Assembly (NCBI GenBank): GCA_963855995.1
Contig: OY979718.1
Location: 28,739,282 to 28,803,281, forward strand
Length of the DNA stretch: 64,000 nucleotides
Source of the DNA: Muricea muricata
Taxonomy: Eukaryota > Cnidaria > Anthozoa > Malacalcyonacea > Plexauridae
Reading direction: 5' to 3'
Below the pieces are notes generated by a model. That model was given only the letters and a program-made list of their open reading frames with translations, did not search any database and had not been told where the DNA came from. Both the position numbers and the translations under genes were made by a program. How positions within the stretch are numbered: the first letter of the stretch is position 1; each line of letters begins with the position of its first letter. Below are positions 7,128 to 64,000 of the stretch, in pieces.

Positions 7128-7403
7128 GTACTGAAGCAGCTTCATGTTGTGGATCTCTCTGTGGCGACTTGGCTTTTGATATTCACCCCATTTCTCAGTT
7201 TATTTATGATGATACGAAACCTTTCATCGCTTGCTTGGTTATCGCTATGTGCAAACTTTCTAATGGGATTTGCAATTGTATCCATATTCTTCTACTTAAT
7301 TACACATACAGGAAGTCCAAGTGGATTGCCATGGTTTACTGGATGGTCCGTTTTTCCACTGTTTTTTGGTGTCGCTGTGTTCGCTTTTGAAGCAATACCT
7401 ATA
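7128..7403 (+). CDS. SLC36-like amino acid transporter, internal exon (first one visible)
   Basis: The exon is bounded by acceptor TTACAG (7122-7127) and donor GTAAGA (7404). Its 92 codons are open and read like SLC36/PAT transporters of the AAAP superfamily, which symport small amino acids with protons across plasma or lysosomal membranes. Two hydrophobic segments are visible. The block 'FTGWSVFPLFFGVAVFAFEA' is the family's highly conserved 'W..PLFFGTAIFAFEG' region, and the preceding 'LSLCANFLMG' matches its 'LSLLANVLM' helix. The exon ends in phase 0 after '..EAIPI', and the next begins 'VLPLENEM', the family's universal next motif. Upstream exons with the first transmembrane helices were not found in 1-7127. 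Confidence 0.92.
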
Positions 7404-8583
7404 GTAAGAACGGCGGGCGATCATCGTATTATCTTTCCAAATGTGCAAACTGTGAACTATGAGCGTGCAAGGGATGATACATTTTTTTATTTAGGCGCCG
7501 ATACTCCTGAAATTACTCTTGTAGCAAGTGAATTTGCCGTTTAAGTTTCCTATGTACATGCGCTCGATGCTGTTTCAGAGAAATAATTTCGTAGTTGGTG
7601 ATGAAAATAAGCAATAATTCATTATACTTTGTGCGTTCATAATTTACTGTTTACGCTTTAGGAAGGACAACCTTTATTGGATTAACTGCATGTATAATTC
7701 AATCATGCCATGCAATGTTAACATATTTTTGCATTTGGATAGCTCGAGCTAGCTTATCATATTTGTCGTCCCGTCACTATAAATAAAATAGGTGTTCTAT
7801 GCTGTAGCAATACCCAGGTCAATGTCTTTTAACGTTTTGACCAACGTTTTGATTTGGACAGCAAGACTTAATGAAACAAATAATTCACGTGAAAGATAGA
7901 TCGATAGTTTATTAAAATTTTTACATAGCAGCCTACAAGGGCACACACACGCACACGCACAAACATAATGTAAGTTATTGTAGATAGGTTCATATTAGAC
8001 CTCCAAAAACACCACCACGGCCACAATAAAATTAAACACAACCAACCGATACTTGGGATTAAACGATAAATCAATTGCATGCATTTATTATGAATTAATA
8101 TTTAAGAAAATCACGATATACTAGATATTAGAGAACACAATAACAAAGCGACATCATATCGATATAACACATGGGGTATAACAACCAAACGGTAAAATAG
8201 ACGTTGGAGAAAAAGAAAAAAAGGAAATAAAAGTACTAGTATATATATTGAACAATCTTTACTGATTTATTCGCTTTTTGATACACATTATGTGCTTTAA
8301 CAAAAAACATGTAACAAAAGCTCGATGTTTGAGGTCGAGTATGAACACTTAAGCCCTCTTTACCAATTCTGGCATGCAGCAATCACAGCACAAGATAGCT
8401 ATAACAAGCCCTATTTCAGTAGTTAGCTTGCAACATGACATAAGCCACCCATCCACCCATCCCATGCACGGTGAGCTTTCGGCTGCGTTAAGAAGCACGA
8501 GTAATGTTTACTCAGTCGATAGCTCTCTCATGCTGCAGGCTTTACAACAAAACAATAGTGTTAAATATCAATTTGTCATTTAG

Positions 8584-25274: not shown

Positions 25275-26996
25275 TCAAAACTGAAATACGTAATTCCATA
25301 CCTCACAACAGTATTCCAGAATAGAACGTATAAGCGCGAAGTATATGTTGGTAAGATTAGCAGGAGGGATACCACCGCGGCATAATACCCGAAGACCGTA
25401 TAACCGTTTGGAGGCCTTGGTGATGATTGATCGAATTTGCTCGTCCCATTTAAGATTATTTTGAATAATTAAACCCAACACTTTGTGCGATTGTACCGTT
25501 TCTACCACGTGACCATCAATTGTCAAAGATGGTAGCTGCGGAGTTTCTTTAAGAAAGGAAACCTGGAGTTCTTTGCACTTTTTGGCATTCAATTTCATAC
25601 AATTGTAAGTTGCCCATGAATCGATAGAATCAAGAGTTGACTGAGTGACCGAGAAGCTGTTCGATGTAAGATTTTCAGAAGATGAGACATCGTCTACAAA
25701 TTTCCACATTTTCGTGCCTGGGGAATTTACTCTTAAGTCATTAATCATAATGAGGAACAATATTGGACCAAGTTTAGTCCCTTGAGGAACCATGGCTGTC
25801 ACTGGGAGCCAACTTGAAAAGGATTCTTCAATTTTAACTCGTTGTCTTCGATCACAAAGAAAGTTTATAATCCAGGGTATTAAAGACCGCCTAACGCCCA
25901 GGTCTAGCAGTTTTTCAATGAGAATATTGTATCCAATGCGGTTGAAGGCCTTCGAGAAATCCAAGAAACTAATACGAATGTATTTACCATTGGAATCCGA
26001 ATCCAAGTGAGAGAGCCAAGAGTGGAGCATGTCAAGGGGGCAATAGGTGGTCGACGTTCCTTTCAAACAGCCAAATTGGCAGGGGTCAATCTTTCCCTTG
26101 ACGTCGTCAATTAGCCAACTTACAACAAAGTCTTCCAGCAGTTTGTAGAGGCAAGAGGTCAACGATATTGGTCTGGTATCTCCTTCACATTCAGGTTGTT
26201 GTACCTTCGGGATTGGAATGATATTGGATTCTTTCCAAATTCTCGGGACGACGCTAGAGGAAAGGGATGCATTAAAAATGGTGGTAACTGGATCGGCTAG
26301 CACGTGAGCGAAATCTTTTAGAAATCGACTTGGTACATTATCAAGTCCTGTTGCTTAAAAAGGTTGGAGGGCCAATAGTTTTAGACAGACTTCGTAAGGT
26401 TGAACGGATAAAAAGGCGTCATTAGCCGGTAAGAATGCGGGCAGTAAATTTACGTCAAATGTCGGAATATCCGCATTGCCAGAGACGTAAAATTCGTTAA
26501 GGGCACTTGCTAGTTGCTCGTCGTTCAGAGTTTCCCCGTTTCTTTCTAAAGACAAATGTTTTGTTTTCTCAGGTTTACCGGACATTTTGTTGACCATTTT
26601 CCACCATCTACGACTGTCAGTGTTTCTTAGATGCTGGACTTTATTCTTATAAAAGGACTTTTTTCTTTCCCTTATTTCGTATTGGACCTTGCGTCTTAGT
26701 GAGAGCCAAAGGGGATTGTTTCTGCTATGGAATGCTTTCTGACGGTCTCTTATGAGGGTTTTAATGGCTGGTGTTACCCAAGGTTTATCGGAATGGTGGA
26801 ATTTTACCAACTTAGGAGGAAATATACGGTCAATTGCTTGCACAAATTGTGATGTAAAAGATGGTGCTAGATCGTCAACTGTGGCTGTAGGCCCAAGTTC
26901 ATTGAACCAATCATGGCTTGTAGCCCATCTCCCAAAAGCGTCAATACAAGATCGATGGTATCGACGTACCAAACGTTTAGTAGACTTGGTGTGCAA
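25275..26996 (-). pseudogene. LINE reverse transcriptase (ORF2, C-terminal part)
   Basis: 26996-26355 carries the linker '..PWVTPAIKTLIRDRQKAF' and 'RRWWKMVNKMSG'. 26303-25275 is a 342-residue open frame with RT motifs: 'ESNIIPIPK', 'DTRPISLTS', 'LDFSKAFNRIGYN' (motif A; Asp, then Phe-Asn for the usual Phe-Asp), 'VPQGTKLGPILFLIMINDL' (motif B) and 'KFVDDVSSSE' (motif C, FVDD). A stop near 26350 separates the two frames, and the thumb end is cut at 25275. The motif order and spacing place it in the CR1/L2/Rex1-like jockey group. Confidence 0.93.
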
Positions 26997-44489: not shown

Positions 44490-44560
44490 CGCGTGCGATT
44501 TCTAGCAAAAAAGGCAGAGGTTCGAATCCTGTCTGTGGCTTGTTTATTTTTAAATTTCGC
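44490..44560 (+). other. tRNA-like fragment with B-box consensus
   Basis: 'GGCAGAGGTTCGAATCCTGTC' region holds a perfect pol III B box (GGTTCGAATCC at 44517-44527) inside a plausible T-arm. No A box or acceptor stem is convincing, so this is probably a tRNA relic or SINE head. Nearby 44600-44617 has 'TTAGGTTAGGGTTAGGG', a telomere-like run. Confidence 0.3.
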
Positions 44561-44639: not shown

Positions 44640-46290
44640 ACGAAAAACCAATGTTTTGTCTGACACTTACACGTGGGAACGAGATCAATGATGCGACTCA
44701 CTGAACATCTATGATGCGAGTGTATGAGTGTCTACGGTTTCGACATTTGCGGCGACGCCACTGAAGACATGCTTGACCTTGGTTAATTAACTAAAAATAT
44801 AATTTTCAAAGAGATCACGCAAAAGTTCATACTGTAGTTGATGGATTGGAGGCATTTTCAAAGGAAAATTTTGAAAGCAAACTTGCAAAGCAATGAGCAT
44901 TTGAAATGTCAAGATTTTGGCAAACAAAACAAAAACATAAGTTTTTATCAGTCTATGTCCATTGAGTCATTACTCCGAAAAATAGAAGTACGAAAGAGGA
45001 AAGTGTGTATTAATAAATGTCTTCTGCTTATTAGACATGTTCATTTTGCTAGATTAAAACGGTGTATTCGCTTTGCCAGTCATTGTAATTTTAAATAGAG
45101 TAATCAGTGGGTATCAGGGCGCTTATATAATATAAGCGCCCTGGTGCGTATGCGCTGTGAAAACACGCAATGAACCATGGCTGTTATTTTCTTCCGCTCT
45201 CTGCTTACAAAATAACGAGTGCAAAATGTTCATTTTTAGGCCCAACAAAAAAATTTTCGCGATCTCAAAAATTTAAAATTAAAGAAACAAAAGAGGCAAA
45301 ATCTTTAAAATTAAAGAGGCAAAGAAACAAAAATCTACGTGCATAGTTGAAAAGAATGTGCCAAAATGATTATAACTGCAAAGTTTAATTGAGAATTATT
45401 CGCCATCTGAATATTATAGCGAAGCGAAGTTTGTAGATTTCACATATTATTTGCATGGCACACGCTAAATTATACCCACTTTAAGCGGAAATAGGTGTTT
45501 AATTACTTCCGCCGCTAAAAACAGTACACAAATTGTAAAAACTTTCATGGCCACAATATTTGTATTTTATAATATTTCTCCATGAAAATTTGGCGGCCTA
45601 AACAAATGCATGCCTCTTTGGGATCACTGTTCTTTGTTGAAATCCACCTCGACTACATCACCACACACATTCAGTAAAATTTGACCCTAAAAGAAAATAA
45701 TTCCTGGTGTTAAGAAGACTGAAGTAAGCAATGTGAACACAAGAGAATACCAAGACTCCAGCTAATACAGAAGGCTCCAGTCAATAACTCGATTCGACAC
45801 ATCTGATAACGGATTGCACATTTGTGCATGTCATAGCTGGGAAAATGGCGGAAAGATAGTGGGAGATAACGATTTTCTTTAAAATGAAATGTAATTTATT
45901 CTACTTCAGTTCTTGCGTAGCACCGAAGCAAGCACTGTGTACATGAAAGAGTAAGGGAAGGTGGTTTCAGCGAAGGTTTCTACATAACCTACATCAATGA
46001 TCAGGGCGGAACCAGAAAAATTTCTGACGGGTGCATATCATTAAATGCCACACATTTCGGGGGGGGGGGGTTTATTCCCTGGAAAAAGTTGAAATCTTAT
46101 ACGAATTTTCCCATTAATATATACATAATATATGCACAATTTCAAGAATGTTTTACAAAAAAGGATGATAAAGAATAAGGTTAGTGGTTCATTTCCTTCT
46201 GAAGCAGATAATAATTATGAGAAGGTCATGGTATTAGTTTTACAAATTAGGTTAAAGTAGTCATATCTGCCTATTTCCTGCACATATTTC
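44640..46290. other. No gene recognised; one short perfect palindrome
   Basis: The open frame 44838-45098 (86 codons, basic, no homology recognised) may be chance. 45115-45143 is a hairpin with perfect 13-bp arms, CAGGGCGCTTATA/TATAAGCGCCCTG, and a 3-nt loop. A poly-G run is at 46060-46069. Nothing else stands out. Confidence 0.4.
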
Positions 46291-47203: not shown

Positions 47204-48479
47204 TCAAAAAGCGTCCCATTTCTTTACACAATATGGCAGACAACTATCACCAAAACGTTTGGTATGACATTTGAAGAGTGGAATGTTCCGTGCATGTCTA
47301 AGGTTGTGCTCATGGTAAGTTGGGTGGGGCAATAACTCCGACAGTTCGCTTGACGTATCACATAAATTCTTTTTATAAAAACGCGTGCACAACAATTCTC
47401 TCCTTTCGGTAAGTGTGGGCAACTTTAACAAACTCAGGCTCTCCTGACATATTTGGCAAGATAATTCTCAGCGCACGTTTTTGAATGTGCTCAATTTGGT
47501 CGCTGAGTAAAATCGATAAGGAAGAGTGGCATACCGGGCACGCGTATTCAAGTTGGACGAACAAAGCTGCAATAAACCTTCTGAAGATCACAGGATTGTA
47601 CGCCATTACGTTCAAGTAACCTGAGCGGGTATAAACGCTTGTTTGCTTTGGAACAAATAGGGCTGACGTGCTTCGTCCATTTAAGATCGGATGTCAGGTA
47701 TACACCTAGTAGCTTTGTAGTTTGAACCATCTCTAGGTACTGATTATCAATCATCAATGGCTGGGATGACGGTTTGTTTTTTAAAATGATACAATAAATT
47801 CTTTCGTTTTTTAAACATTTAAATTCATATTGTTCGCAATTGACCATTGGTTAACCCTATCTACCTCAGTCTGTAAGGTTGATAAATTCAATTCGCCGAC
47901 TCTAACAACCTCTGACAAAACGCTGTCATCCACATATTTATATAAGGGTACCTGGCTAACCAAATCATTCACCATTATCAGGAAAAATAAGGGTCCAAGT
48001 TTGGTTCCTTGTGGTACACCAGCACTTATAGTTCTCCAGTTCGAAGTACAATTCTGTAATTTAACACGTTGTTGACGTTGTTGAAGAAAACTAGCGCACC
48101 AATTCAAAAGTACAGGTGGAACATTAAGTAACCTTAATTTATCAATCAGAATGTTATGATCAATTCGGTCAAACGCTTTCGAAAAGTCTATCATGCACGT
48201 CCGAATAAAAGTGGTAGGTTCCTCAAGAGCAGATAACCAATTATGAAGAAGATGAACGAAGGCATGCAATGTTGATGATCTTTTGGCACTTCCAAATTGA
48301 TAAGGATCGATATGAGGCATTAATGTGCAAGCAATCCAGTTAAAAATAAAGCCTTCGAGAACTTTGCTTATCACAGGGGTAAAGGATATAGCTAGGTCTA
48401 AGGTCGGAGTCAATAGACTGTGGTTGGGGAGTCTTCGCAAGTGGCAGGACTTCCGCACTCTTCCAAAGCTTAGGGACAT
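47204..48479 (-). pseudogene. LINE reverse transcriptase and C-terminal domain
   Basis: 48479-47811 has 'FIRTCMIDFSKAFDRIDHNI' (motif A), 'GVPQGTKLGPLFFLIMVNDL' (motif B) and 'YKYVDDSVLSE' (motif C, YVDD intact). 47847-47548 has 'KLLGVYLTSDLKWTKHV' (thumb) and 'ANKRLYPLRLLERNGV'. 47615-47373 has 'LEYACPVCHSSL' and 'IQKRALRIILP'. 47431-47204 closes with 'RFYKKNL..' and ends at a stop 47204. Two or three frameshifts break it; catalytic residues are otherwise intact. Confidence 0.93.
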
Positions 48480-49724
48480 GGCCTTCTCTGATGGAAGAAT
48501 TAAAAATGGACCAGACAGGATTGGAAATGATTGCTGCGCAATCTTTTAATACCCAATTTGGGATTTTATCAGGTCCCACTGATTTGCGTTCATTAATAAC
48601 AGATAGAGCAAGTTCTACAGCTTCTGAAGAAATAATGTACTCATCAGGGACATCTATGACCGGAATAGGGGTATAAGCTAAAGATAATAAATCATCAGAG
48701 ACACGGCTGAAAGATTCACTTATCAGCTCCGCAAGATCAACGTCCCTAAGTATTGTATCGTTCACTGTGATCCTTGTTATAAGTGGTGATTTCGATAAGC
48801 CAGAAAGCATTTTGATACCATCCCACCACTTGTGGGGATCTGTATCGTGTGTATTTATCAGCAAAAAATCGATGTCTCGCCTTTTTACAAAGTTTTATCG
48901 CCTTATTACGGTATACTTCACATTTTTGTGAATCATTTTTCACCCAAGGTTGCTGGCGCTTTTTGATGGCGTCTTTAACAAGGGGAGTGATCCACGGTTT
49001 GTCATTGGGGTGTTTTTTGACTGAAACAATAGGGAGACAGGAATCGATCGCATCATCAATTACGGCCTGGAAAGCTTCTAGCTGGTGCTCACAGGAATCT
49101 AACCGCATAATGGGTCTCCAATTAAAGTTTAATTTCTAAGGCGGCAATCAAATGTCTCTTATTGGATGCTCTAATATCACGTTTATGAAATCGCATTGTT
49201 GGTAAACTTGGGGTCGGTTTTCCCGTAGGTTGGAGAATGACACTGGAGTGATAAGATGATGCAACAGGCGGTAGAATGATAGATTGATAATACGGTAGTA
49301 CGGTTGAAAACGCTTGATCCAAGGTATTATTTCCCCTAGTAAGCTTTGTGACAAGTTTCTTAAGTTTAAACGAGGAGCACAAATTAGCCGGTTTGAATTG
49401 GTTGAAGTCCCCAAGAAGCATAATCGCAGAATTCGGGTAAGTAGCAAGAAGAGAATCAAGGGAGTTAAAAATATGTGAGCGAAGGATACGATCATCGCTC
49501 TGAGGAGGGTGATAGACAGTTCCCAATACAATAGAATTGATTCCTCTTGGTAGACGGTCCGTTTTTATAAGGAACCATTGAGTTTCGATCTCAGGCTCAC
49601 ACAAGTTGCCTAATTCAATAACATTAATAAGTCGTGAACTTATATACGTGCAAAGGCCTCCTCCTCGTTGATTATTAAATGTATCTTTTCGATAAGTCAC
49701 GTATCCAGGAATGCGGAGTAACAC
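48340..49724 (-). pseudogene. LINE endonuclease and linker
   Basis: 49724-49122 reads 'FNNQRGGGLCTYISSRL', 'VLGTVYHPPQSDD', and 'IMLLGDFNQFKPANL' (GDFN catalytic motif). 49108-48746 is the linker 'PNDKPWITPLVKDAIKKRQQ', and 48864-48340 contains 'DPHKWWDGIKMLSG' and 'KSVGPDKIPNWVLKD', the conserved block before RT motif 1. The endonuclease start is lost (no 'NiRSl' motif). Confidence 0.92.
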
Positions 49725-49760: not shown

Positions 49761-50489
49761 TAATTTAACAAAAGTGCTGCCAGTGTGTCGAAATGTCCCT
49801 TCGAGCTTAGCTTCAATTCGTCTGGCTTTCCATTCCTTGTATCTCATAGATTATCAAATTGCTCGCAATATAATTTTACAATCTTTTCGGCTTCGAAGGC
49901 GAAGGCTTAATGCAAGATCGTTTGGAACGCAATCAGCATCATATACGTATACATCATTCAAATATATTTGTTTGCTGCCGGGTTTGTATCACTGTAACGA
50001 ATTAGTCGAATACAGTCCACTCATAGAGTCAGTTGTTCACTCGATCTTTGTTACGTTGTCGCCTCGTTGTTGAATCGAATGAATCGCCCTGCTAGGTCAC
50101 TGTAGACTCCAAATGGATCAGTGCACCGATTTGAGCGCTCGCAACAAGCACGCGATGCATCGCTCAGCGGACTAAATCTACCGTGACGTAGGCTGTAGAA
50201 CAATGGGTTTCGTGACGTCACGGCAGATTTGACGCGAAAAAGGACTCGGGACCCATGCATTAACCGACGCAATGCAAATCTACCGTAACATAGTGATACA
50301 TTCTATTTTACCGTGACCTTGAAGTTTCACAGTGAACGACATATACATGTATTGCGTGCAATACAAGGGGAAAATTTTTTGCGAAACACTTTACTATTAT
50401 ATGCATGGCGCAACCGTAAAATGACATAAATTAGCGAATTTACTAGATTCATATTAATCTGACACTGCAGAGAACAACGAAAAATTCGT
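49761..50489. other. No gene recognised
   Basis: The 99-codon plus-strand frame 49774-50073 looks like an antisense shadow of LINE-like sequence. 50080-50290 is comparatively GC-rich and CpG-containing, with no start or element recognised. Confidence 0.4.
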
Positions 50490-50561
50490 TGTCTCGAGCG
50501 GGATTCGAACTCGCATCTTCGGGTTTCTAGACCGCCGCTCTACCAATTGAGCTATCGAGTC
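50490..50561 (-). tRNA. tRNA-like sequence, probable pseudogene (minus copy)
   Basis: 72 nt on the minus strand: D-arm 'TAGCTCAATTGGTAGAGC' (A box), T-arm with 'GAGTTCGAATCCCGC' (B box), and an acceptor stem GACTCGA/TCGAGAC pairing at 6 of 7 positions. The anticodon stem pairs poorly (3 of 5). With standard numbering the loop CTAGAAA would give anticodon AGA, but a serine tRNA should have a long variable arm and this does not. Best read as a pol III-promoter-bearing tRNA relic. Confidence 0.5.
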
Positions 50562-50734
50562 AACTGGGATTGGTAGCGAGTCTTATCCAATTTAAGTGCA
50601 CGAAATATTTTCGTGACGACTTAACGCTTGTCTTTGAGGACGCGCAGTGTTTCAATTCTATTTCAGAACCATCCTCAGAGATATGAAAAACTAGATTCAT
50701 ATCAATCTGACACTGCAGAGAACAACGAAAAATT

Positions 50735-50806
50735 GACTCGCTAGCTCAATTGGTAGAGCGGCCGTCTAGAAGCCTGAGGATGCGAGTTCGAATCCCGCTC
50801 GAGACA
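50735..50806 (+). tRNA. tRNA-like sequence, probable pseudogene (plus copy)
   Basis: The same 72-nt sequence as 50490-50561 in the opposite direction, with four to six changes; A and B boxes are intact but the anticodon stem is worse (2 of 5). Both copies are preceded on the plus strand by the same 45-bp block ending 'CTGCAGAGAACAACGAAAAA' (50441 and 50689), and the inverse of that block follows the second copy. Confidence 0.5.
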
Positions 50807-50839
50807 ACGAATTTTTCGTTGTTCTCTGCAGCGTCATGT

Positions 50840-53777: not shown

Positions 53778-53924
53778 CTGATTTTTATGCGGGCTATCTA
53801 GCAGTACCATCTTGTTCATGCGAAATGATGTTAATGCATTTCCTCCTAAAGCCAAAACTTGTGCTCGTACTATAGCATGCACCTCGCCAATGAACACTTG
53901 AATAAAGTGGTTTAAACCACCGTT
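53778..53924 (-). CDS. C2CD5: C2CD5 C-terminal module exon
   Basis: Acceptor TTTTAG (53925-53930 region), donor GTATTG (GT at 53776-53777). 49 codons, phase 0 both ends, reading 'NHFIQVFIGEVHAIVRAQVL' then 'ALGGNALTSFRM'. Vertebrate C2CD5 has 'FLHAFIAEVFAMVRAHVA' and 'ALGGNAVVSY' here, and both end '..P.KNQ' at the same splice site. The following exon (family '..QCLINVSGD..') was not found between here and 50500; the foldback element (51438-53643) lies directly downstream. Confidence 0.93.
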
Positions 53925-54129
53925 CTAAAACAGAAATCTGTATGAAAATTATGCCCTTTTAATATCGCACGCATAGGACATTCGTGAAACTAAATAAGCT
54001 CACTATAAACCATTCTCTCCCACATCTTATTTTTATTAGGCATCTTTTGAATGAAACACATTGTTGCGCTAAAAGCTTGTTAAACGCTGTGTTCCTATAT
54101 AATGTGTCAAATCAAATATCGAAACTTAC

Positions 54130-54233
54130 CTCACGTACTGAGAGACTTTCACGAATAAAAAACAAATTGATGTTTCCCAAGTAATGTTCAGTATAGCAGC
54201 CCACTACACGTGACATAGGGGTAAGCTCTACGA
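54130..54233 (-). CDS. C2CD5: C2CD5 exon, 'LTPMS...YLGNINLFFIRE'
   Basis: Acceptor GACCAG, donor GTAAGT (GT at 54128-54129). 104 bp, phase 1 in and phase 0 out. Reads 'VELTPMSRVVGCYTEHYLGN' then 'INLFFIRESLSVRE'; vertebrate proteins have 'KMTPLSFIPG...YLGIINMFFIRE' at this position. It precedes 53778-53924 in phase. Confidence 0.93.
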
Positions 54234-54338
54234 CTGGTCGAAAACTATGAATACCGCCAGACTAGGAGAAACACGCAGAAGTTACTCAAAGGTTATGCCA
54301 ACCAGCGATAGAGTCAAAAATGCTGTAAATGTACTTAC

Positions 54339-54379
54339 CTTCAGCATTATTCTGTTCTCTAAACGACAGTCTGAACATT
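54339..54379 (-). CDS. C2CD5: C2CD5 short exon (41 bp)
   Basis: Acceptor TATGTAG, donor GTAAGT (GT at 54337-54338). Phase 2 in, phase 1 out: 'MFRLSFREQNNAE', whose last base joins the next exon to give '..AEVVELTP'. This resembles the vertebrate 'FRNRS...VGVVKMTP' stretch. The similarity is weak by itself; splice sites and phase support it. Confidence 0.7.
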
Positions 54380-54582
54380 CTACATAAATAAAGAATGTAA
54401 TGTATTACAACATGATTAGAGGTAAATACTAAAAAATGCAGTTAGAATTGCATCTCTGGTTGTAAATAACGACGTCCTTAGAGCGAAACACTAAAATATG
54501 TCACAAAATGCTTACGTTACTAAAGAAATTAGGCTACTAAGATTGTATGTTTTACAATCAGTTATTCAAGGAAAAAACCGTG

Positions 54583-54672
54583 TTTGTATACTTTTGTATT
54601 ACGCGGGAAAAAGCGTTGCCACATTACCACATAGTGGTAAAGCTTTTCCGTACGTAATACAAAAGTATACAA
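54583..54672. mobile_element. Short palindromic element
   Basis: Arms 'TTTGTATACTTTTGTATTAC' and inverse at each end, with 'GGAAAAAGC' and 'GCTTTTCC' inside and a hinge at 'CACATTACCACATAGTGG'. About 90 bp, in a C2CD5 intron. Confidence 0.75.
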
Positions 54673-54878
54673 AATTCGAAAAATTTACAGGACTATATTT
54701 TCCATATTTTACAATATTTCGCAACCAAACTTGACAGTTGTATGAAATTTAAGATGCCCTTTCCAGCTGTGCTAATTAATTTTTCAAATTCAAAAGTTTG
54801 TCTAATAGGGAAATGGCCTATTGCGTTGCAGATTGCAAAAAAAGAATGTAGCGTGCGACAATTCTTCAAGTATAATAC

Positions 54879-54977
54879 CTTTGTCATCTGCTTTCTTTTT
54901 CTGGAGGTTCTGCGACTCTTCATCTATCTCGAACTGTAAATCTTCTGAATCCTCAAACTTTCCAATTTTCAGAAGAG
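54879..54977 (-). CDS. Candidate C2CD5 exon (acidic linker)
   Basis: Acceptor TATATAG, donor GTATTA (GT at 54877-54878). 99 bp open: 'LLKIGKFEDSEDLQFEIDEE' then a lysine-rich tail. It could match the vertebrate '..NEELLQFPLEL' stretch and lies in the right order and strand. Its phase (ends with one base) does not directly fit the next exon, which needs two, so an unseen exon must lie between or this assignment is wrong. Confidence 0.45.
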
Positions 54978-55384
54978 CTATATAAACACGACAACACAAA
55001 CAAAATTAAAAGAACACAACTCCCACATGCATGAACAGTTCACTTGAAATTAGAGTGTTTTAAAACTAATTTCGGAATACGAACCAGTAGAAGCATGAAA
55101 TTAAAGATATGCAGATAGAAATACGAGATCAGAAATTTTATGAAGCTTACTCGTACCAGGCTCGTACTTAGAAAGGACATTTGCGGGGGCACGTCAGATA
55201 TAACTGCCTATACAAATTCACTCTTTAATAAGGTCTTTGTAGTTTGCAAAGTGAACAAGGATCAGTTTAAAGGCCAAAACATATTGTAGGTTTGATTATG
55301 TTTCATTAATTAAATTATTCGTTTCAGTTTATATTTGTTTAACACCAGTATAATTTTGCGGAAACTCACGTAAACTTATTATTA

Positions 55385-55475
55385 CATTGCTTTCGATCGG
55401 TATCTATGAATTCCCAAAGTAACAGATCGAAATATTTGCAACAAGAAATTTACGTGGTATTTCTACAAAATTAAA
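55385..55475. repeat. Decayed end of the 10213-12041 element
   Basis: 'GAAATTTACGTGGTATTTCTAC' region (55446-55467) matches the terminal block of 11961-12041, preceded by 'CAGATCGAAATATTTGCAA', a decayed form of its 'CGGATCGAAAGCTCTGCAA'. The rest of the element is not seen. Confidence 0.6.
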
Positions 55476-55564
55476 CTTCTAAATTTAAACTTTTGTGATT
55501 AAAGGTACGGAAAAACGATCCAGCTTTTCACCGACTCTAATACAGAAAGTAAGACTTACTTAAT

Positions 55565-55932
55565 TTGGAAAATGTTCAATTAAAACTGAAAGAAAGTGCA
55601 ATTTTAGCGTCAGAAAGGTACAGAGAAAACTTCTTAGAGGGCAACTTTGGTAAATACCGAACAATGACATCTGGGAAAAAAGGACAAAACACTGAGGTTG
55701 AATCAAATGGTATTAAAATTGAATCAACTGACAGTATTAAATTGTTTGGAGTATATATTGACAATAGACTGAAGTTCAATGAACATGTTAGTAATCTAAA
55801 TTTTAGAGTATGTATTTGGCATATGTGGGAGTAACATATTTGTAAATAGTTAAATAGTGTCCCCAATTAGCAGACTTATATCGGCTATGTATTCCTGACA
55901 CTGAAATAAAGTTTATGTATGTATGTATGTTT
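55565..55932 (+). pseudogene. LINE 3' fragment with (TATG)n tail
   Basis: An 89-codon frame ends with 'DSIKLFGVYIDNRLKFNEHV', the RT thumb motif of CR1/L2-like LINEs ('..iKlLGv.id..L.f..Hi'), then cuts to the 3' UTR 'CTGACACTGAAATAAAG' and a TATG repeat (55913-55932). Plus strand, internally deleted, inside a C2CD5 intron. Confidence 0.7.
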
Positions 55933-57671
55933 ATGTACTATTGATTTAAAATTGTACTGTACCAGGTACACTTTTCTTTTCTTTGTGCTTGCCAAGCGAA
56001 ATTTCTACAGGCAAATAATTACCAGCATCTCGTTGCTTAAGTCCAATTACGTACGCACTGACAGCGACCTAAATGGTTTTATAAATAAACTATATAAACC
56101 AAGTGCTCTAGGTGGAACGCCTTGTAAATCAACGGCTCGAAAATGCAATCTTGACTCTTGTGGAAAATATAATTTTAACGGAAAGATCCCCAAGACAGTT
56201 TAGGGGCAAAACATATTTTTTATTTCAAATTTCTAGGGGTCACGATACAGTCCTCTCTGCATGCAGGCTCACAGGATAATTACTCCTGGAAACCGTTGCA
56301 CAACACTTTTGATATGTTAGTGCATCTTATATTTCTTATCGATTTTTTAAGACCACATTTGTCTGTAACTTTCTACAATGTATTTTATTTCAGACAAACA
56401 TGCAAAGTCGCTTAGTTCAATATTGATAAAACCACGCATGATAGAAGCATGCATGACCATTATAATGAAACAGCAACAGCTAAATAATTTATACGACTTG
56501 CTAAAATTGAGCACAAAATTTGCCAGCCTACGAGAATGAATGAGTTTGATTCTTCTGTCACACACGTGATATGACAGTTCCAACAGTTTTCGTTTCAATA
56601 GTTTTCATTGTTTTTGTGAAACCAAAATAATAGCACTTGTGTGAGAGGAGAGTCACCCATGAGCTTGAAACTTGTTATACAAGCAAACCATCATAAACAC
56701 AACTTAATGTTTACGACTGGCCAAATTAGCTATAAAATTTCTTGCTTCAAAAAAAACCAATATGGGAAAAGCTCAGACATGCATAATGCGACCAACTTGG
56801 TGACATCGAATTAATTTTGTTTGATTTTAATATAAATTTGACCTATATACACAGGAATCACTATATCTATCATAATGCATTAATGACATGGTAGGATGAC
56901 AAAGGTGCAAGGCAATTGTCAGTCAAGTCGACAGACACACAGAGATTTTGGTGGTATGGGATAGAGATAAAGTACTCAGTTCACCACGTAATTTGGTAAG
57001 TGAGATACTTGAGATACACAATTCACGATCATATCCAGATGTAATCCTGTTTGTAAATTGTATAGTTATATTATAAATTAATGTATCATTAAGTGTTTTG
57101 TTTTCATTAGGGGACACTTTCCTATTACTACCTGAACACTGTCTGCCATTGGGATCTCCAAATCAAAACGAATGTTTGAAATTGAACAAGGTGACAATCG
57201 ACGAACTTTAAACCAAAAGCCCTACAAAGAGAGAGGTCTTTACACACTTGTACAGCATTGGATCTTAAAGCGGTGTTTTGGACGAACCAATATTGTTTGA
57301 AATCAAGAATGGCAGTTGAGAACGGCTGCCCCTATTATGAATTTTGTTTATCTATAGTTTAGGCTAATTATTGCAGTAATAGCAATGGAAACATGACATT
57401 GTACGAAATTTTCGCTTAATAATGTCTAAAATTCTAGTAATATTTTAAACGACATAAATGCAATTTTTGCAAACCCACAACTTCAATTGTACAAAACGTA
57501 CCGACTTTAAACTGTGCGGGCAGCACAGGAAAAATTAAAGCTTCGATGATTAATTTTGTTTGTATTGTATAAAATGACGAAACCAGGATTGAGGGAATTT
57601 AAGTGCAAAATGTCTTAGTTCGAAAGTATCTGTTAGCAATATGATAAATAATGGTAATTGCACTGAGTGGA
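55933..57671. other. C2CD5 intron sequence; no feature recognised
   Basis: AT-rich. At least one C2CD5 exon (family '..LYFKLR..PC.LC...F.v.LPE..') should lie between 58653 and 54977, but I could not locate it. No repeat recognised. Confidence 0.4.
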
Positions 57672-57776
57672 GTGCAATTTTGGTCAGAAATCAAACGCGT
57701 GATTACAAAATCGCGCTCCCGCTTCGCGGTCGTGCGATTTTGTAATCACGCGTTTGATTTCTGACCAAAATTGCAC
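57672..57776. mobile_element. Palindromic MITE with 45-bp near-perfect arms
   Basis: Arms GTGCAATTTTGGTCAGAAAT... with one mismatch in 45 bp, around the GC-rich hinge 'TCCCGCTTCGCGGTC'. The flanks repeat the word: 'GAGTGGAGTGCAATTT' before and 'CGAAGTGCAATTTCC' after, as if the terminal word was duplicated. Confidence 0.88.
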
Positions 57777-58652
57777 GACACGAAGTGCAATTTCCACTTT
57801 ATTACATTCATTTTGAAATCTAAAACAAGACACACCTCCCGCCTTCCTTCCGGTTCTTCTTCGGCGCGGTAGCATAGCAACAAGCGAACAAAATCGAAGG
57901 ACATATTTGTACAGGTATTTAACAAATGGAGAAGGTAATGAACTTGTTTGTGCATAAAATCTTGGCCAAAGGAATAGCAAGGTTAGTTTAAACATTCTAT
58001 CAGCTTTATTCGCGATTTAACAGGATTCAACAACGGATTTTTGAGCTAAAACATATTAAATTTATCTGGACTTACTTGTCGCTGCCATATTGCATTTCGA
58101 GCTTGTACTAGTTATTCAATGTTATTCACAAAGGTTTTATTTCTGTAATGTGTAGCATCGTTTGATTTGTTTGGCAACTTAGCTAGTGTTTTATCTGTTT
58201 TTCAGTGCTTGTGTACTAGCCTTTGACTGCCTGAGAAAATAGTATAGGTGATATGAGATTTGTTTATTTTGCTCTTTTGTCACCGTGATCAGATGTTTTT
58301 AAAATTTATTTGGTAAATTGAATGCATGCAGTTTGATTTGTTTTGTTGGCTAGAATCGGCAGCCATATATGCAATTGGGACCAAAAAAAATGCTATTAAT
58401 GAGCAGTTCTTTAATGCACCCAAAATGATGCGATTTGGGGATTAATCGCACTATTTTTGACCAATCAGAATGCTGGAAATACCATTGATTTCAAAATGAA
58501 TGTAATAAACAGTTTAATGAGTTTAAAAAGTTTTAGCAATTTTCTTGTTCAGTCTGCATGCACAGTGAAATATCGGGCTGAGGTTTTAAGTACAGACCTA
58601 ACGTTCCGTCAATAGTTTCTTAATTGTATCTTATATCTCTTCAAGGCATCAC
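57777..58652. other. C2CD5 intron sequence; no feature recognised
   Basis: No coding or repeat feature seen. Minus frames at 57684-57995 run through the palindrome and are not gene-like. Confidence 0.4.
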
Positions 58653-58742
58653 CTTAACAATACTGTCAAAGAGCTTTGAGACCAATTTAGTTTGATCGCT
58701 ATTTTCATAACACACAGAAATTCTCTTGACTGCAGTTATCAT
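58653..58742 (-). CDS. C2CD5: C2CD5 exon, 'MITAVKRISV'
   Basis: Acceptor TTTTTTTCAG, donor GTGATG (GT at 58651-58652). 30 codons, phase 0 both sides: 'MITAVKRISVCYENSDQTKL' then 'VSKLFDSIVK'. Vertebrate C2CD5 has 'MFTSVRVIRLSS', then a variable stretch and 'L.ENLLKSLYFKLR' at this place. It follows the 59439-59500 exon in phase. Confidence 0.9.
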
Positions 58743-59438
58743 CTGAAAAAAAGTTTTGAGAACACAAAGCTTAAAAAACAATGTTTTACGAAAGTCTGCT
58801 TCGAATTGAATTTGTGTGTAGTTCACAATAACGTGGCATATAAGCACTTAGAAATAAGCTTTCTTCCGATTTTCATGCCATATCCTCGAAAGTTAACATA
58901 TCACTTTGAATGAAAGGCAATCTAGTTTGTATGATTGATGGATAATTAAGATTCTATATATGGATGTGACAATTGCAAGGAATTCAAAGTAATTGTTTGA
59001 AAATAGCATTCTACATAATCTCTGCAGAGCTATGCAAGAAAAATTCGTTTTCGTTTTTGTTCGATAAAGAAAGATTTATGAAAGAAATACTTGAAATAGC
59101 CTGGAAGTATCTCTCCTTCCAATCTCTCATGCGTGTTTCTACACATGAACAAGTTTCAAGTTTAATTTGTTCCAGTCTGAGGACTAAATACTAAAGCAAA
59201 TTACAAAAGAATGCCTGGATTACGAGCCAGTATGAATATTATATTTGAAATGACACCTCAAAACTGCATCAGACTTGCCCAGCTTTTGACTTAATCATGC
59301 AGCTTCGATCCAGTTCGACGAGTACGAAAATATCCTAACTATTCTTCCAATGGATCAACATATAACTTCCCAGAAAAAAAGTAACAACTGCGTTGCATTT
59401 ACTGCGTTGAATATCGTTTACAGCGTTTTTACAGTTAC

Positions 59439-59500
59439 CTGCATTCTCTGTTCGGTTTTAGATACTCCGGGAACGACCTCGGTGGTACCACAATAAAAAC
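59439..59500 (-). CDS. C2CD5: C2CD5 exon, 'FYCGTTEVVPG'
   Basis: Acceptor ATTCTAG, donor GTAACT (GT at 59437-59438). 62 bp, phase 1 in, phase 0 out. Joined to the previous exon it reads '..PEGFYCGTTEVVPGVSKT', matching vertebrate '..PSGFYSCNTEIMPGINN'. Confidence 0.92.
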
Positions 59501-59627
59501 CTAGAATTACAAAAAGACGTGGCACTAAAAGTTTTAAAAAATTTACCATGCAGCTCCTCTCACATCGACACTTTTACAGCTTTATCACATTTTTCGTCTG
59601 CCTTGTCCACATTGAGGCAGAAAATAC

Positions 59628-59688
59628 CTTCTGGGGTAGGTGCATCAAAAAGGTACGTTATAACATCCTCATCTTGTGCGTCATCAAT
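59628..59688 (-). CDS. C2CD5: C2CD5 exon, 'IDDAQDEDV'
   Basis: Acceptor TTTTTTTTCAG, donor GTATTT (GT at 59626-59627). 61 bp, phase 0 in, phase 1 out: 'IDDAQDEDVITYLFDAPTPE'. Vertebrate proteins have 'IDDTDAMEDVHSLLTDVPPP' after 'AFVLE', which is how the previous exon ends. Confidence 0.93.
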
Positions 59689-60162
59689 CTGAAAAAAAAG
59701 CCGAACACTACGTAACTTGAGGAAAGCATAAATCACCTTTCCAACGTAGTTTTAGTTGCCTAAGTTTTAAAAACAAAAAGAAATGTGTAGAAATACGGAC
59801 ACTAAAACAGTTTGCTATAGTTAATAAAGGGTTGCTTATAGCTTTAAACATTGTACCCCAGTTATATAATCGTTCATTAGGTTATTCAAAAAGTTAAGCC
59901 TTAATTTCAATGGCACACATTTTGCACATTTTGGTATACTGCTTGTTTTACGTGTTGCAAAGTTAGTTACGTAGTTTTACAATGAAACAATATAGCAAGT
60001 AATTATTAGATTGGTTTTCTGACCGGAGGGCATTTTGGAACGAACTTTGAAACCGCTTTGGCAGCGTCACTTTGTGCCAACAGTTGTCGTATCCATGTGC
60101 GGCTGAAGGCACTAAACGACAAATTAAAACATCTAAACTGTATAACAAAACAATTATTTTAC

Positions 60163-60276
60163 CTCGAGTACAAAAGCTTCTCTATTACCAAATGAAGGAT
60201 CGAGCATGGCCTTTTCTTCAAGACTGTCACTTGACGCGCTTTCTGATTGATGGAGAATATTTGGTGATGACGTATC
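60163..60276 (-). CDS. C2CD5: C2CD5 exon, serine-rich linker ending 'AFVLE'
   Basis: Acceptor TTTGTTATAG, donor GTAAAA (GT at 60161-60162). 38 codons, phase 0 both ends. 'ILHQSESASSSDSLEEKAML' corresponds to the vertebrate 'LLRSQSESSDEVTELDLS' phospho-serine linker, and it ends 'GNREAFVLE' (vertebrate 'GKKDAFVLE'). Confidence 0.93.
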
Positions 60277-60495
60277 CTATAACAAATAAATAACACGAAC
60301 CCAATTACGATATTCATTGAAAAGAGTTTTAAAAATTGTCAATGAAGCAGCCATCTTAGGGTACTTCTCAGTATCAGTGACTTGAACGCAAAATTTATAG
60401 CGAGCTTCGTCGCAAGTTAGGTTAATTAAGCCTACAAACGATACTTCGTTCAGGTAAGTCAATCAAAAGTAGGCCAAAACACATAGTACACATAC

Positions 60496-60597
60496 ACTTA
60501 TCTCTTCGATTCCAGAGGATAATCTACTTTTAGCACTGAATTCCAAAATCTTTTTTTGAATGTTCCTTAATCGTTTTTCTTCATCTGTTGTCGACAT
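60496..60597 (-). CDS. C2CD5: C2CD5 exon, 'IQKKI' linker helix
   Basis: Acceptor CTTTTAG directly before ATG; donor GTATGT (GT at 60494-60495). 34 codons, phase 0: 'MSTTDEEKRLRNIQKKILEF' and onward. Corresponds to vertebrate '..SYEQHISHMQKKINDTIAK'. The ATG is internal, not a start: the upstream exon joins in frame. Confidence 0.88.
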
Positions 60598-60934
60598 CTA
60601 AAAGAAGCCTTATTAAAATCATCATTGAGATTATGTGTGGTAATACTCAATCATAGGTGCACTCTTGCACTAATAAACTTAGAGGATAAATCGATGTAAC
60701 ATCACGGCCTTATAGGCTTTACCGATTATTATCTTATCCCATTTACATCAAGCGTGATCGTATTTTTGACAAAAAATAGCCTGATAGCTAACTGCAGAAA
60801 AATATCAGAAAATACTGAGCCTGTAGCATGGGGCTTTGCAAAAAGCTCGAGGTTAATATTATTATATTTCTCTTTATTTCAAAAACAGTTAGTATTACGA
60901 TTTTAGAAATGTACGCCATTAAAACTGCACCTAC

Positions 60935-60997
60935 CTTGCCAACAACACGAAGTAATGGAGCCGGAGGCAAACACGAGAGATAAACAGCTGTTGCAGT
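60935..60997 (-). CDS. C2CD5: C2CD5 exon, 'TATAVYLSCLPP'
   Basis: Acceptor TAATTTCAG, donor GTAGGT (GT at 60933-60934). 21 codons, phase 0: 'TATAVYLSCLPPAPLLRVVG' then K. Vertebrate proteins read 'SATGVYLAALPTPGGIQIAGK' at this position, ending at the same place. It encodes the last strands of the middle YbjQ-like module. Confidence 0.94.
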
Positions 60998-61570
60998 CTG
61001 AAATTAAGGGTTAAAGGAAATTCAACCTGTGTGACAATGCACTGCTTACTAGATATGCAGTGAAACGTCTCGTTGTTGATTACGTGAGGAGAGAATTTAT
61101 GTCCTATATGACCGACATTTAAGACTAATGCCGGAATTGGTGTGCGCTTAGTATGTACGACCGTTCAATCCTGTACCTTTTCTTTTGTGACAGGATGTTT
61201 AAAAAAGAGCGCAGGCACGTACATATTATTTTTATTTTTTTATTTCTACAATTGGCTAAGCACATACGAAATAAGGCAAAGATTGAGAGGTGGAAAAATA
61301 AAAAGGCAGAAGCTGCATGGCCACAGAAAATAACAGGCTTTGCCAAATTAGCAAAACAAAAATTCACAATAACGGCGCTGTTAGACCATCCAACTTTTCT
61401 CTTCACCCGCGCGATGCACTACAGAACACTGGCTAAAAGTGCATGCATCCTAAGTAACCCAGCAACCTTTGTCTGCTTATGTTTCTAAATTAATCCAGCC
61501 ACCGCTTTCCTTACGTTGTTAAACGATTGGCGAAATTAGGTAGCTAAAAAGTATTTGCTCAAGTATTTAC

Positions 61571-61645
61571 CGCAAGAGCAATCATCATTGCTTCACCAAC
61601 TGAGACTTGAATTTGAAGACCAAATAAAGCATTCATTCCTCTTAG
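61571..61645 (-). CDS. C2CD5: C2CD5 exon, 'GMNALFGLQIQVSVGE'
   Basis: Acceptor TCTTTATAG, donor GTAAAT (GT at 61569-61570). 25 codons, phase 0: 'LRGMNALFGLQIQVSVGEAM'. Vertebrate C2CD5 has 'LKGMNALFGLRIQITVGENM', so this is the most diagnostic exon in the set. It gives the core of the middle YbjQ-like module. Confidence 0.97.
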
Positions 61646-61816
61646 CTATAAAGATAATAACATAGCGTATTCATCAGTGGAAAAGGCGCGAGAAAACATT
61701 TTATCATGTCTATCAACAAATTTCAAACCGAAACTTGATACGACCATTGCTCAGCAATTCACGGCGAATTTCAGAATTGTCACGGCCCGTTGAAATAACA
61801 TGAATTTATAGCAGAC

Positions 61817-61870
61817 CTTCAGTTTATTTGTTAGCTGACGGTGCAGTTCATACTCCATAAATGGGAGAAT
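61817..61870 (-). CDS. C2CD5: C2CD5 exon, 'LPFMEYELHRQL'
   Basis: Acceptor TTCATCTTTAG, donor GTCTGC (GT at 61815-61816). 18 codons, phase 0: 'ILPFMEYELHRQLTNKLK'. Vertebrate: 'LLPFMEYEVHTQLMNKLK'. Confidence 0.96.
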
Positions 61871-62217
61871 CTAAAGATGAAACAGTAATCACAAATAATA
61901 ATAGTTAATATAAGGAAGCATCTTTACAATTAGCTTGTTTACGATTTTAAGAGATAAAATCACTGTTATTCAATTTTTCGTTTCACAACACTTTTGGAAA
62001 CGGCCACGACCTTTTAAGCAATGGCCACAACTACACCATATAGCGGCATCATATACGCAAAGGTGCCCATTCACTTTTACATAATTTCAAAGCTATAAAT
62101 AGTCATTTCTCTTCGTGTGACAACTTCTCTTCATGTGTCAATTATAGCAAAGACATTGCGCCGCATGTATCGAGGTGTGGCCAAAATGCCATGCAGGAAA
62201 ATTTCAAGGATTCTTAC

Positions 62218-62275
62218 ATTACTGGTCAATTCTGCATTCGCTTCTCCTTTGTCTTTCCGTCTACTACGACAAACC
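62218..62275 (-). CDS. C2CD5: C2CD5 exon, 'VCRSRRKDKGEANAE' (most 5' exon visible)
   Basis: C2CD5 (CDP138) is a C2-domain protein that in mammals is phosphorylated by AKT2 and helps insulin-driven fusion of GLUT4 vesicles with the plasma membrane. The N-terminal C2 domain binds calcium and lipid; the middle and C-terminal modules are YbjQ-like folds of less clear role. This exon has acceptor CTTTCAG and donor GTAAGA (GT at 62216-62217); 58 bp, one base then 19 codons: 'VCRSRRKDKGEANAELTSN', matching vertebrate 'LCRLKKKAQAEANATAISN'. Exons for residues before this (family '..GKGCLIQAR') were not found in 62276-64000, where a MITE, a Crypton scrap and a palindrome sit. The gene runs right to left and is cut by the right window edge. 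Confidence 0.92.
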
Positions 62276-62887: not shown

Positions 62888-63290
62888 TTATGTCACACAA
62901 CAAAACAGAACAATGAATTTAGCTGAAGTAAATGTGCAGTTATTAAAATATCCCCTCTCTTGCATTTCAAGGCGTGCCCTTTTCCCATTTCGTTCCACTT
63001 CATCACATAGCATATCGTCCTTTAGAGTATTTTCCGCAATGTAACTTCGAATTCTTTTCTCCCCGCAATCAATATTTCGCGCCTTCTCGTCAATGCTGTG
63101 CGTTTCTTTGTTGACAAAAGTAACCTCACCATCTAGACACTTTGGAACAGCCACCTTCGTTTTGATATCTGGCATTTCATACCTCTGCAATGATCTCACA
63201 TCACCATGTCCAGTCCTTTCCATAATAAACCTCTCTGGTACAAATGTTAGCAAAAACGAGACATGGCCTTTTCACCAATTTTAAATATTT
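62888..63290 (-). pseudogene. Crypton-like tyrosine recombinase, C-terminal scrap
   Basis: The minus frame 63253-62888 starts '..RFIMERTGHGDVRSLQRYE', which matches the end of the Crypton/KIAA1958-type recombinase domain ('..i..rTGHrs...lr.Ye', with the tyrosine as the nucleophile). The remaining 100 residues are a polar, charged tail without recognised domain. The frame just upstream (63392-63201) overlaps in another frame and is not clearly related. The catalytic arginine and histidine region before it is missing. Confidence 0.6.
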
Positions 63291-63586: not shown

Positions 63587-64000
63587 TCTAACGTGACAGT
63601 GTGTCCGCCTCTGATATTCAAAGGTAAGTGGTTGAAATGTCCCGGCCACGTCATACAAAACGCAAAAATATTAAACAATACTTGAAGCAAATCGATCACG
63701 CGATGAAGAAGTCTCAGTAGGAAAGGTTTAGGCGCTTGCCCCGTTACCTTTTACCACGGCTTAAAATACTAATGACTAGCTATTGTATTTCCATGCGAAT
63801 ACTATAAACTTAAATCAAGAGCGGGATGGTTATCAATAAAATCGAAATCCGCAGTCTGAAAATCTTTCTGTTTCGATGAGTGTCATAGCCGGTCTGAAAA
63901 TTTTGTTCTGTTTCATTAGAAATTGATTGTTTCACAGTCAAAGTATTTGCGGAGCTCGACTTCCCACTACATCTCGGCGACGGAAGCAGACGGCCATGAT
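63587..64000. other. No feature recognised
   Basis: No C2CD5 exon, repeat or ORF of note was seen before the window ends. Confidence 0.4.

Follow-up and report, generated by a model that had tools for sequence, protein, structure and literature searches.

The small minus-strand exons between positions 53778 and 62275 raise the question of which gene they encode and whether that gene is intact. The window, meaning the whole 64,000-nucleotide stretch of DNA that was analysed, occupies positions 28739282-28803281 in the 453-Mb, 74-contig genome of Muricea muricata. Judged by the domains of the spliced product, it is nearly certain that these exons belong to an orthologue of C2CD5 (also CDP138 or KIAA0528), as an earlier note on this DNA had proposed. 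The window very probably holds the 3' half of an intact-looking animal C2CD5 gene, apparently present at a single locus of the nuclear cnidarian genome. This is an ordinary, conserved Muricea muricata gene whose introns are large; it is a further member of a known family and of low novelty. Among the titles listed by a literature search, none dealt with cnidarian C2CD5, although such a paper may exist, and a search of the text of PMC9238359 for CDP138 and C2CD5 found neither name.

Exons of the window

The exon set was re-derived from the sequence. Thirteen exons of 41-147 bp, with AG acceptors and GT donors, are found again between 53778 and 62275; these are taken to be the twelve exons, plus one doubtful, of the earlier note. 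With E10 and E11, the interval holds 15 coding exons on the minus strand, which join into 411 stop-free residues with every phase matching. Together with a terminal exon that carries the stop codon (45686-45624), they make 16 exons in one open frame, all with the same type of acceptor and donor.

E1: 62218-62275, minus strand, start phase 2 and end phase 0; the PF23025 match starts here
E2: 61817-61870, minus strand, ILPFMEYELHRQLTNKLK, cut from the sequence, in frame
E3: 61571-61645, minus strand, LRGMNALFGLQIQVSVGEAMMIALA, cut from the sequence, in frame
E4: 60935-60997, minus strand, cut from the sequence, in frame
E5: 60496-60597, minus strand, linker of low conservation
E6: 60163-60276, minus strand, AFVLE at its end
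E7: 59628-59688, minus strand, IDDAQDEDV..., end phase 1
E8: 59439-59500, minus strand, start phase 1
E9: 58653-58742, minus strand, within the fifth YbjQ-like domain
E10: 57132-57221, minus strand, GFWFKVRRLSPCSISNIRFDLEIPMADSVQ, apparently overlooked earlier; fills a gap
E11: 56023-56068, minus strand, VAVSAYVIGLKQRDA, 46 bp, end phase 1; apparently overlooked earlier
E12: 54879-54977, minus strand, phase 1 to phase 1
E13: 54339-54379, minus strand, start phase 1, fits E12
E14: 54130-54261, minus strand, FFIRE, PF23128
E15: 53778-53924, minus strand, ALGGNA, PF23128
E16: 45624-45686, minus strand, terminal exon, GQILLNVCGDVVEVDFNKEQ and stop codon, phase 0, good acceptor

Two stretches of the protein had been described as missing. 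They are indeed absent from the earlier exon set, but are present in the DNA as 57221-57132, 56068-56023 and the terminal exon. The junction from 54977-54879 to 54379-54339, previously held to be out of phase, is in phase, with phase 1 on both sides; the earlier phase sum was probably upset because the 46-bp exon, with its end in phase 1, had been left out. The borders of the small exons 54339-54379 and 56023-56068 could be off by a few bases.

A strict-motif scan for the last exon, down to 49700, gave no match. With a looser C-terminal motif and an acceptor, scanned down to about 30000, the sole candidate lies at 45686, and adding this exon lifts the PF23128 score from 26.9 to 34.7 bits (cut-off 27). 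Downstream of the stop codon, ATTAAA occurs at 45503 and 45389 and AATAAA at 44548 and 44435; no poly(A) site is claimed. Across the 16 exons of the window, the chosen frame is open 16 of 16 times, against 6 of 32 for the two alternative frames, a weak control because the exons were picked with the protein in mind.

Domains and similarity searches

The spliced 411 residues match two Pfam models named for C2CD5 well over their cut-offs, PF23028 with 82.7 bits (cut-off 27) and PF23025 with 75.1 bits (cut-off 29.1), whereas PF23128 just misses its own with 26.9 bits (cut-off 27). The Pfam E-values for this 15-exon protein are 2.6e-23 and 5.9e-21. When the full C part of the model is used, PF23028 ("C2 domain-containing protein 5, fifth YbjQ-like domain") reaches 83.0 bits, PF23025 218.6 bits over two stretches, and PF23128, the C-terminal YbjQ-like domain, passes its cut-off with E16. 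The N part contains a further stretch of PF23025 (105.5 bits) and a C2 domain (PF00168, 81.8 bits, cut-off 22), whose exons at 250440-213099 lie outside the window. The modelled domain order is thus an N-terminal C2 domain, three PF23025, one PF23028 and one PF23128, with a best Pfam E-value over the modelled protein of 1.3e-65.

A provisional human C2CD5 sequence served as query, and the Pfam evidence is independent of it. Searched with tblastn against 294 kb of the chromosome, this human sequence yields 15 pieces at E<=1e-3, while its reverse and each of 20 shuffled versions yield none. The alignment spans nearly all of both modelled parts, with an identity to the provisional human sequence of 65.5% in the N part and 45.3% in the C part. 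Within the 453-Mb genome itself, a search with the 431-residue window part, in which the best candidates were scored (16 of 16), gives 14 matches at E<=10, none of them away from this locus. Solved structures searched with the 411 residues returned no match at E<=1. Among prokaryote genomes and viral contigs, a query of 256 of the 876 residues gave 12 and 1 pattern matches, respectively, none of them a confirmed relative.

Upstream exons and gene layout

As a check, the earlier note had asked whether the exons continue past position 64000 into a C2 domain. On the DNA of the flanks, given here in window coordinates, 14 more C2CD5 exons are found beyond that position, with strand and protein order unchanged, and the row starts with the C2 domain at an ATG at 250440. 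All of the following are on the minus strand and colinear with C2CD5.

81913-81824, 82138-82022, 105242-105156, 127455-127341, 132443-132335: minus strand, upstream exons nearest the window
137431-137276, 171547-171487, 172578-172509, 196907-196822, 211587-211492: minus strand, middle upstream exons
213183-213099, 229666-229580, 245966-245880, 250440-250351: minus strand, 5' end; the last of these starts with the ATG

All 30 exons thus follow one another in protein order on a single strand of a single contig, between 250440 and 45624. The gene spans 204,817 bases from its ATG to its stop codon, with 202,186 of them in introns or the linker gap, and the model comprises 876 residues without a frame break, with start and stop codons present and the usual splice sites. 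The 14 introns between the 15 interval exons measure 77-1,431 bases, whereas upstream introns reach 34 kb, which is why many of the interval exons could be noticed together; the last intron (E15 to E16) has 8,091 bases and the one before E1 19.5 kb. Because about 205,000 bases are divided into some 30 small exons, simple reading-frame searches do not see this gene. Gene finders, too, easily miss or split a 205-kb gene with exons of 41-156 bp.

Upstream phases match with one exception, the linker: the exon before it ends at 137276 in phase 2, the exon after it starts at 132443 in phase 0, and the model lacks one or more exons between them. Acceptor scans between these two positions gave no in-phase set of linker exons. 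A stretch near 134130 looks similar, but its phase does not fit and it was not accepted. For the exon at 105242 the donor is ambiguous; visual inspection suggests a stronger competing site, the use of which would break the phase.

Alternative explanations

A decayed pseudogene or fragment of C2CD5, the exons of which survive only because the decay is recent, would be compatible with the long introns, two of which contain remnants of mobile elements (a retrotransposon and one of Crypton type), and with the linker exon or exons outside the window that the model lacks. Such decay is nevertheless very unlikely, since the 876 modelled residues run without a frame break between a start and a stop codon and with usual splice sites, and the genome search with the window part reveals no second locus that could be the working copy. 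Membership in a different family with YbjQ or C2 domains draws on the last domain, which matches the general YbjQ_4 model at just 34.7 bits; against this, the two models named for C2CD5 score far over their cut-offs behind a C2 domain, and the provisional human sequence aligns over nearly all of both modelled parts, making another family extremely improbable.

Equally hard to credit is that chance splice-like sites were stitched together to suit a known protein. Several exons have just 41-62 bp and were picked with the protein in mind, but the Pfam E-values go down to 1.3e-65, the reversed query and the 20 shuffles give no match, and the last-exon motif is matched only once. For the gene as a whole, chance joining is already refuted by these controls.

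Comparison with known proteins

Like vertebrate C2CD5, the protein described here has a C2 domain with several YbjQ-like domains behind it. The six aspartates checked in the C2 domain (D19, D23, D26, D76, D78 and D84, numbered as in the provisional human sequence), which we take to be its calcium ligands, are all identical. Serine 197 of human C2CD5 is presumably the Akt2 phosphorylation site; the residue aligned to it is Q, and there is no Akt2 site at that position, a feature that does not define the family across animals. A search for the motif RxRxxS/T found none in the 876 modelled residues, and the missing linker exon or exons might hold one. Where the middle part of the provisional human sequence has CxxC, the coral protein has CxxN.

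Bacterial YbjQ proteins are single-domain proteins that form oligomers. The bacterial YbjQ/putative heavy-metal-binding family (PF01906) matches the coral protein weakly, at 20.3 bits and below the cut-off of 23, and unlike the bacterial proteins, the YbjQ domain is here repeated and fused to C2. A near-full-length cnidarian C2CD5 opens the question of which traits of the mammalian protein are ancient, with the C2 aspartates and the YbjQ row as candidates, and which may be recent, such as the Akt2 site.

Proposed function

In mammals, C2CD5/CDP138 is described as an Akt2 substrate with a part in GLUT4 vesicle fusion (PMC4354152; PMC5636979). The second of these papers also names CDK5 and FIBP as CDP138 partners and cites a study in which CDP138 had no role in GLUT4 translocation, because of which the mammalian function is disputed (PMC5636979). 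C2CD5 is further described as required for noradrenaline secretion in mammals (PMC13090686).

Extending the mammalian work to this animal, the C2 domain would bind membrane lipid in a calcium-dependent manner, and the row of YbjQ-like domains would form a folded scaffold, perhaps a single-chain ring comparable to the oligomers of bacterial YbjQ. We propose that calcium-dependent lipid binding combined with such a scaffold would help vesicles to arrive at the plasma membrane or to fuse with it; by analogy, we lean slightly towards this membrane-traffic function in Muricea muricata. Since the aspartates are kept and S197 is replaced by Q, a calcium-responsive membrane-traffic factor without an insulin switch at that position would be expected, as far as one sequence can suggest.

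A more tentative and rather doubtful scenario is that the core of C2 and YbjQ domains predates the cnidarian-bilaterian split, and that the insulin control through Akt2 and S197, absent here, was perhaps added later, on the vertebrate side, to a secretion factor that already existed. The non-accepted stretch near 134130 reads RKRRTS, which fits RxRxxS/T and, if exonic, would count against such a late origin of the Akt2 control.

Repeats and mobile-element remnants

Several repeats lie in the introns of the gene and elsewhere in the window. The remnant in the last intron is outside the gene product.

47811-49724: minus strand, non-LTR retrotransposon remnant, RVT_1 at 47811-48479

A second non-LTR retrotransposon remnant with a reverse-transcriptase domain is found at 25275-26303 of the window, on the minus strand. 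The last intron also contains, at 50460-50836, a tRNA-like pair (Rfam RF00005, 54.9 bits on the minus and 31.3 bits on the plus strand) that sits in the two arms of an inverted repeat, 104 nt long and 94% complementary. The first copy is called tRNA-Ser (aga) by ARAGORN and is short for a serine tRNA. Between E9 and E10, at window positions 57641-57807, a MITE-like 82-nt inverted repeat is 84% complementary, with 3 nt between its arms.

Pieces of a Crypton-type recombinase, on the minus strand and with an interrupted frame, occupy a C2CD5 intron at about 135333-136706 (QRICH1 46.8 bits, DUF3504 71.3 bits, Phage_integrase 28.3 bits). The 19.5-kb intron preceding E1 includes an open reading frame of 121 amino acids at 62888-63253, minus strand. 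By eye it was considered a Crypton-type tail, an assignment that was rejected: its one Pfam match is below cut-off and at chance level, and the comparison with the upstream Crypton-type piece gives an E-value of 14.

Other loci

At 7149-7544 of the window, on the plus strand, there is a probable exon of an amino-acid transporter (Aa_trans 25.0 bits, cut-off 25.6). Elsewhere in the genome, COX1 is located on contig C74, on the strand opposite to cox2 and atp6, the latter two named from their translations; a tRNA scan of 4.3 kb around this COX1 (ARAGORN, bacterial setting) detected none. A second COX1-like stretch with one in-frame TAA lies on a large contig (C1:38414782-38416095) and may be mitochondrial DNA copied into the nucleus, or else foreign DNA.
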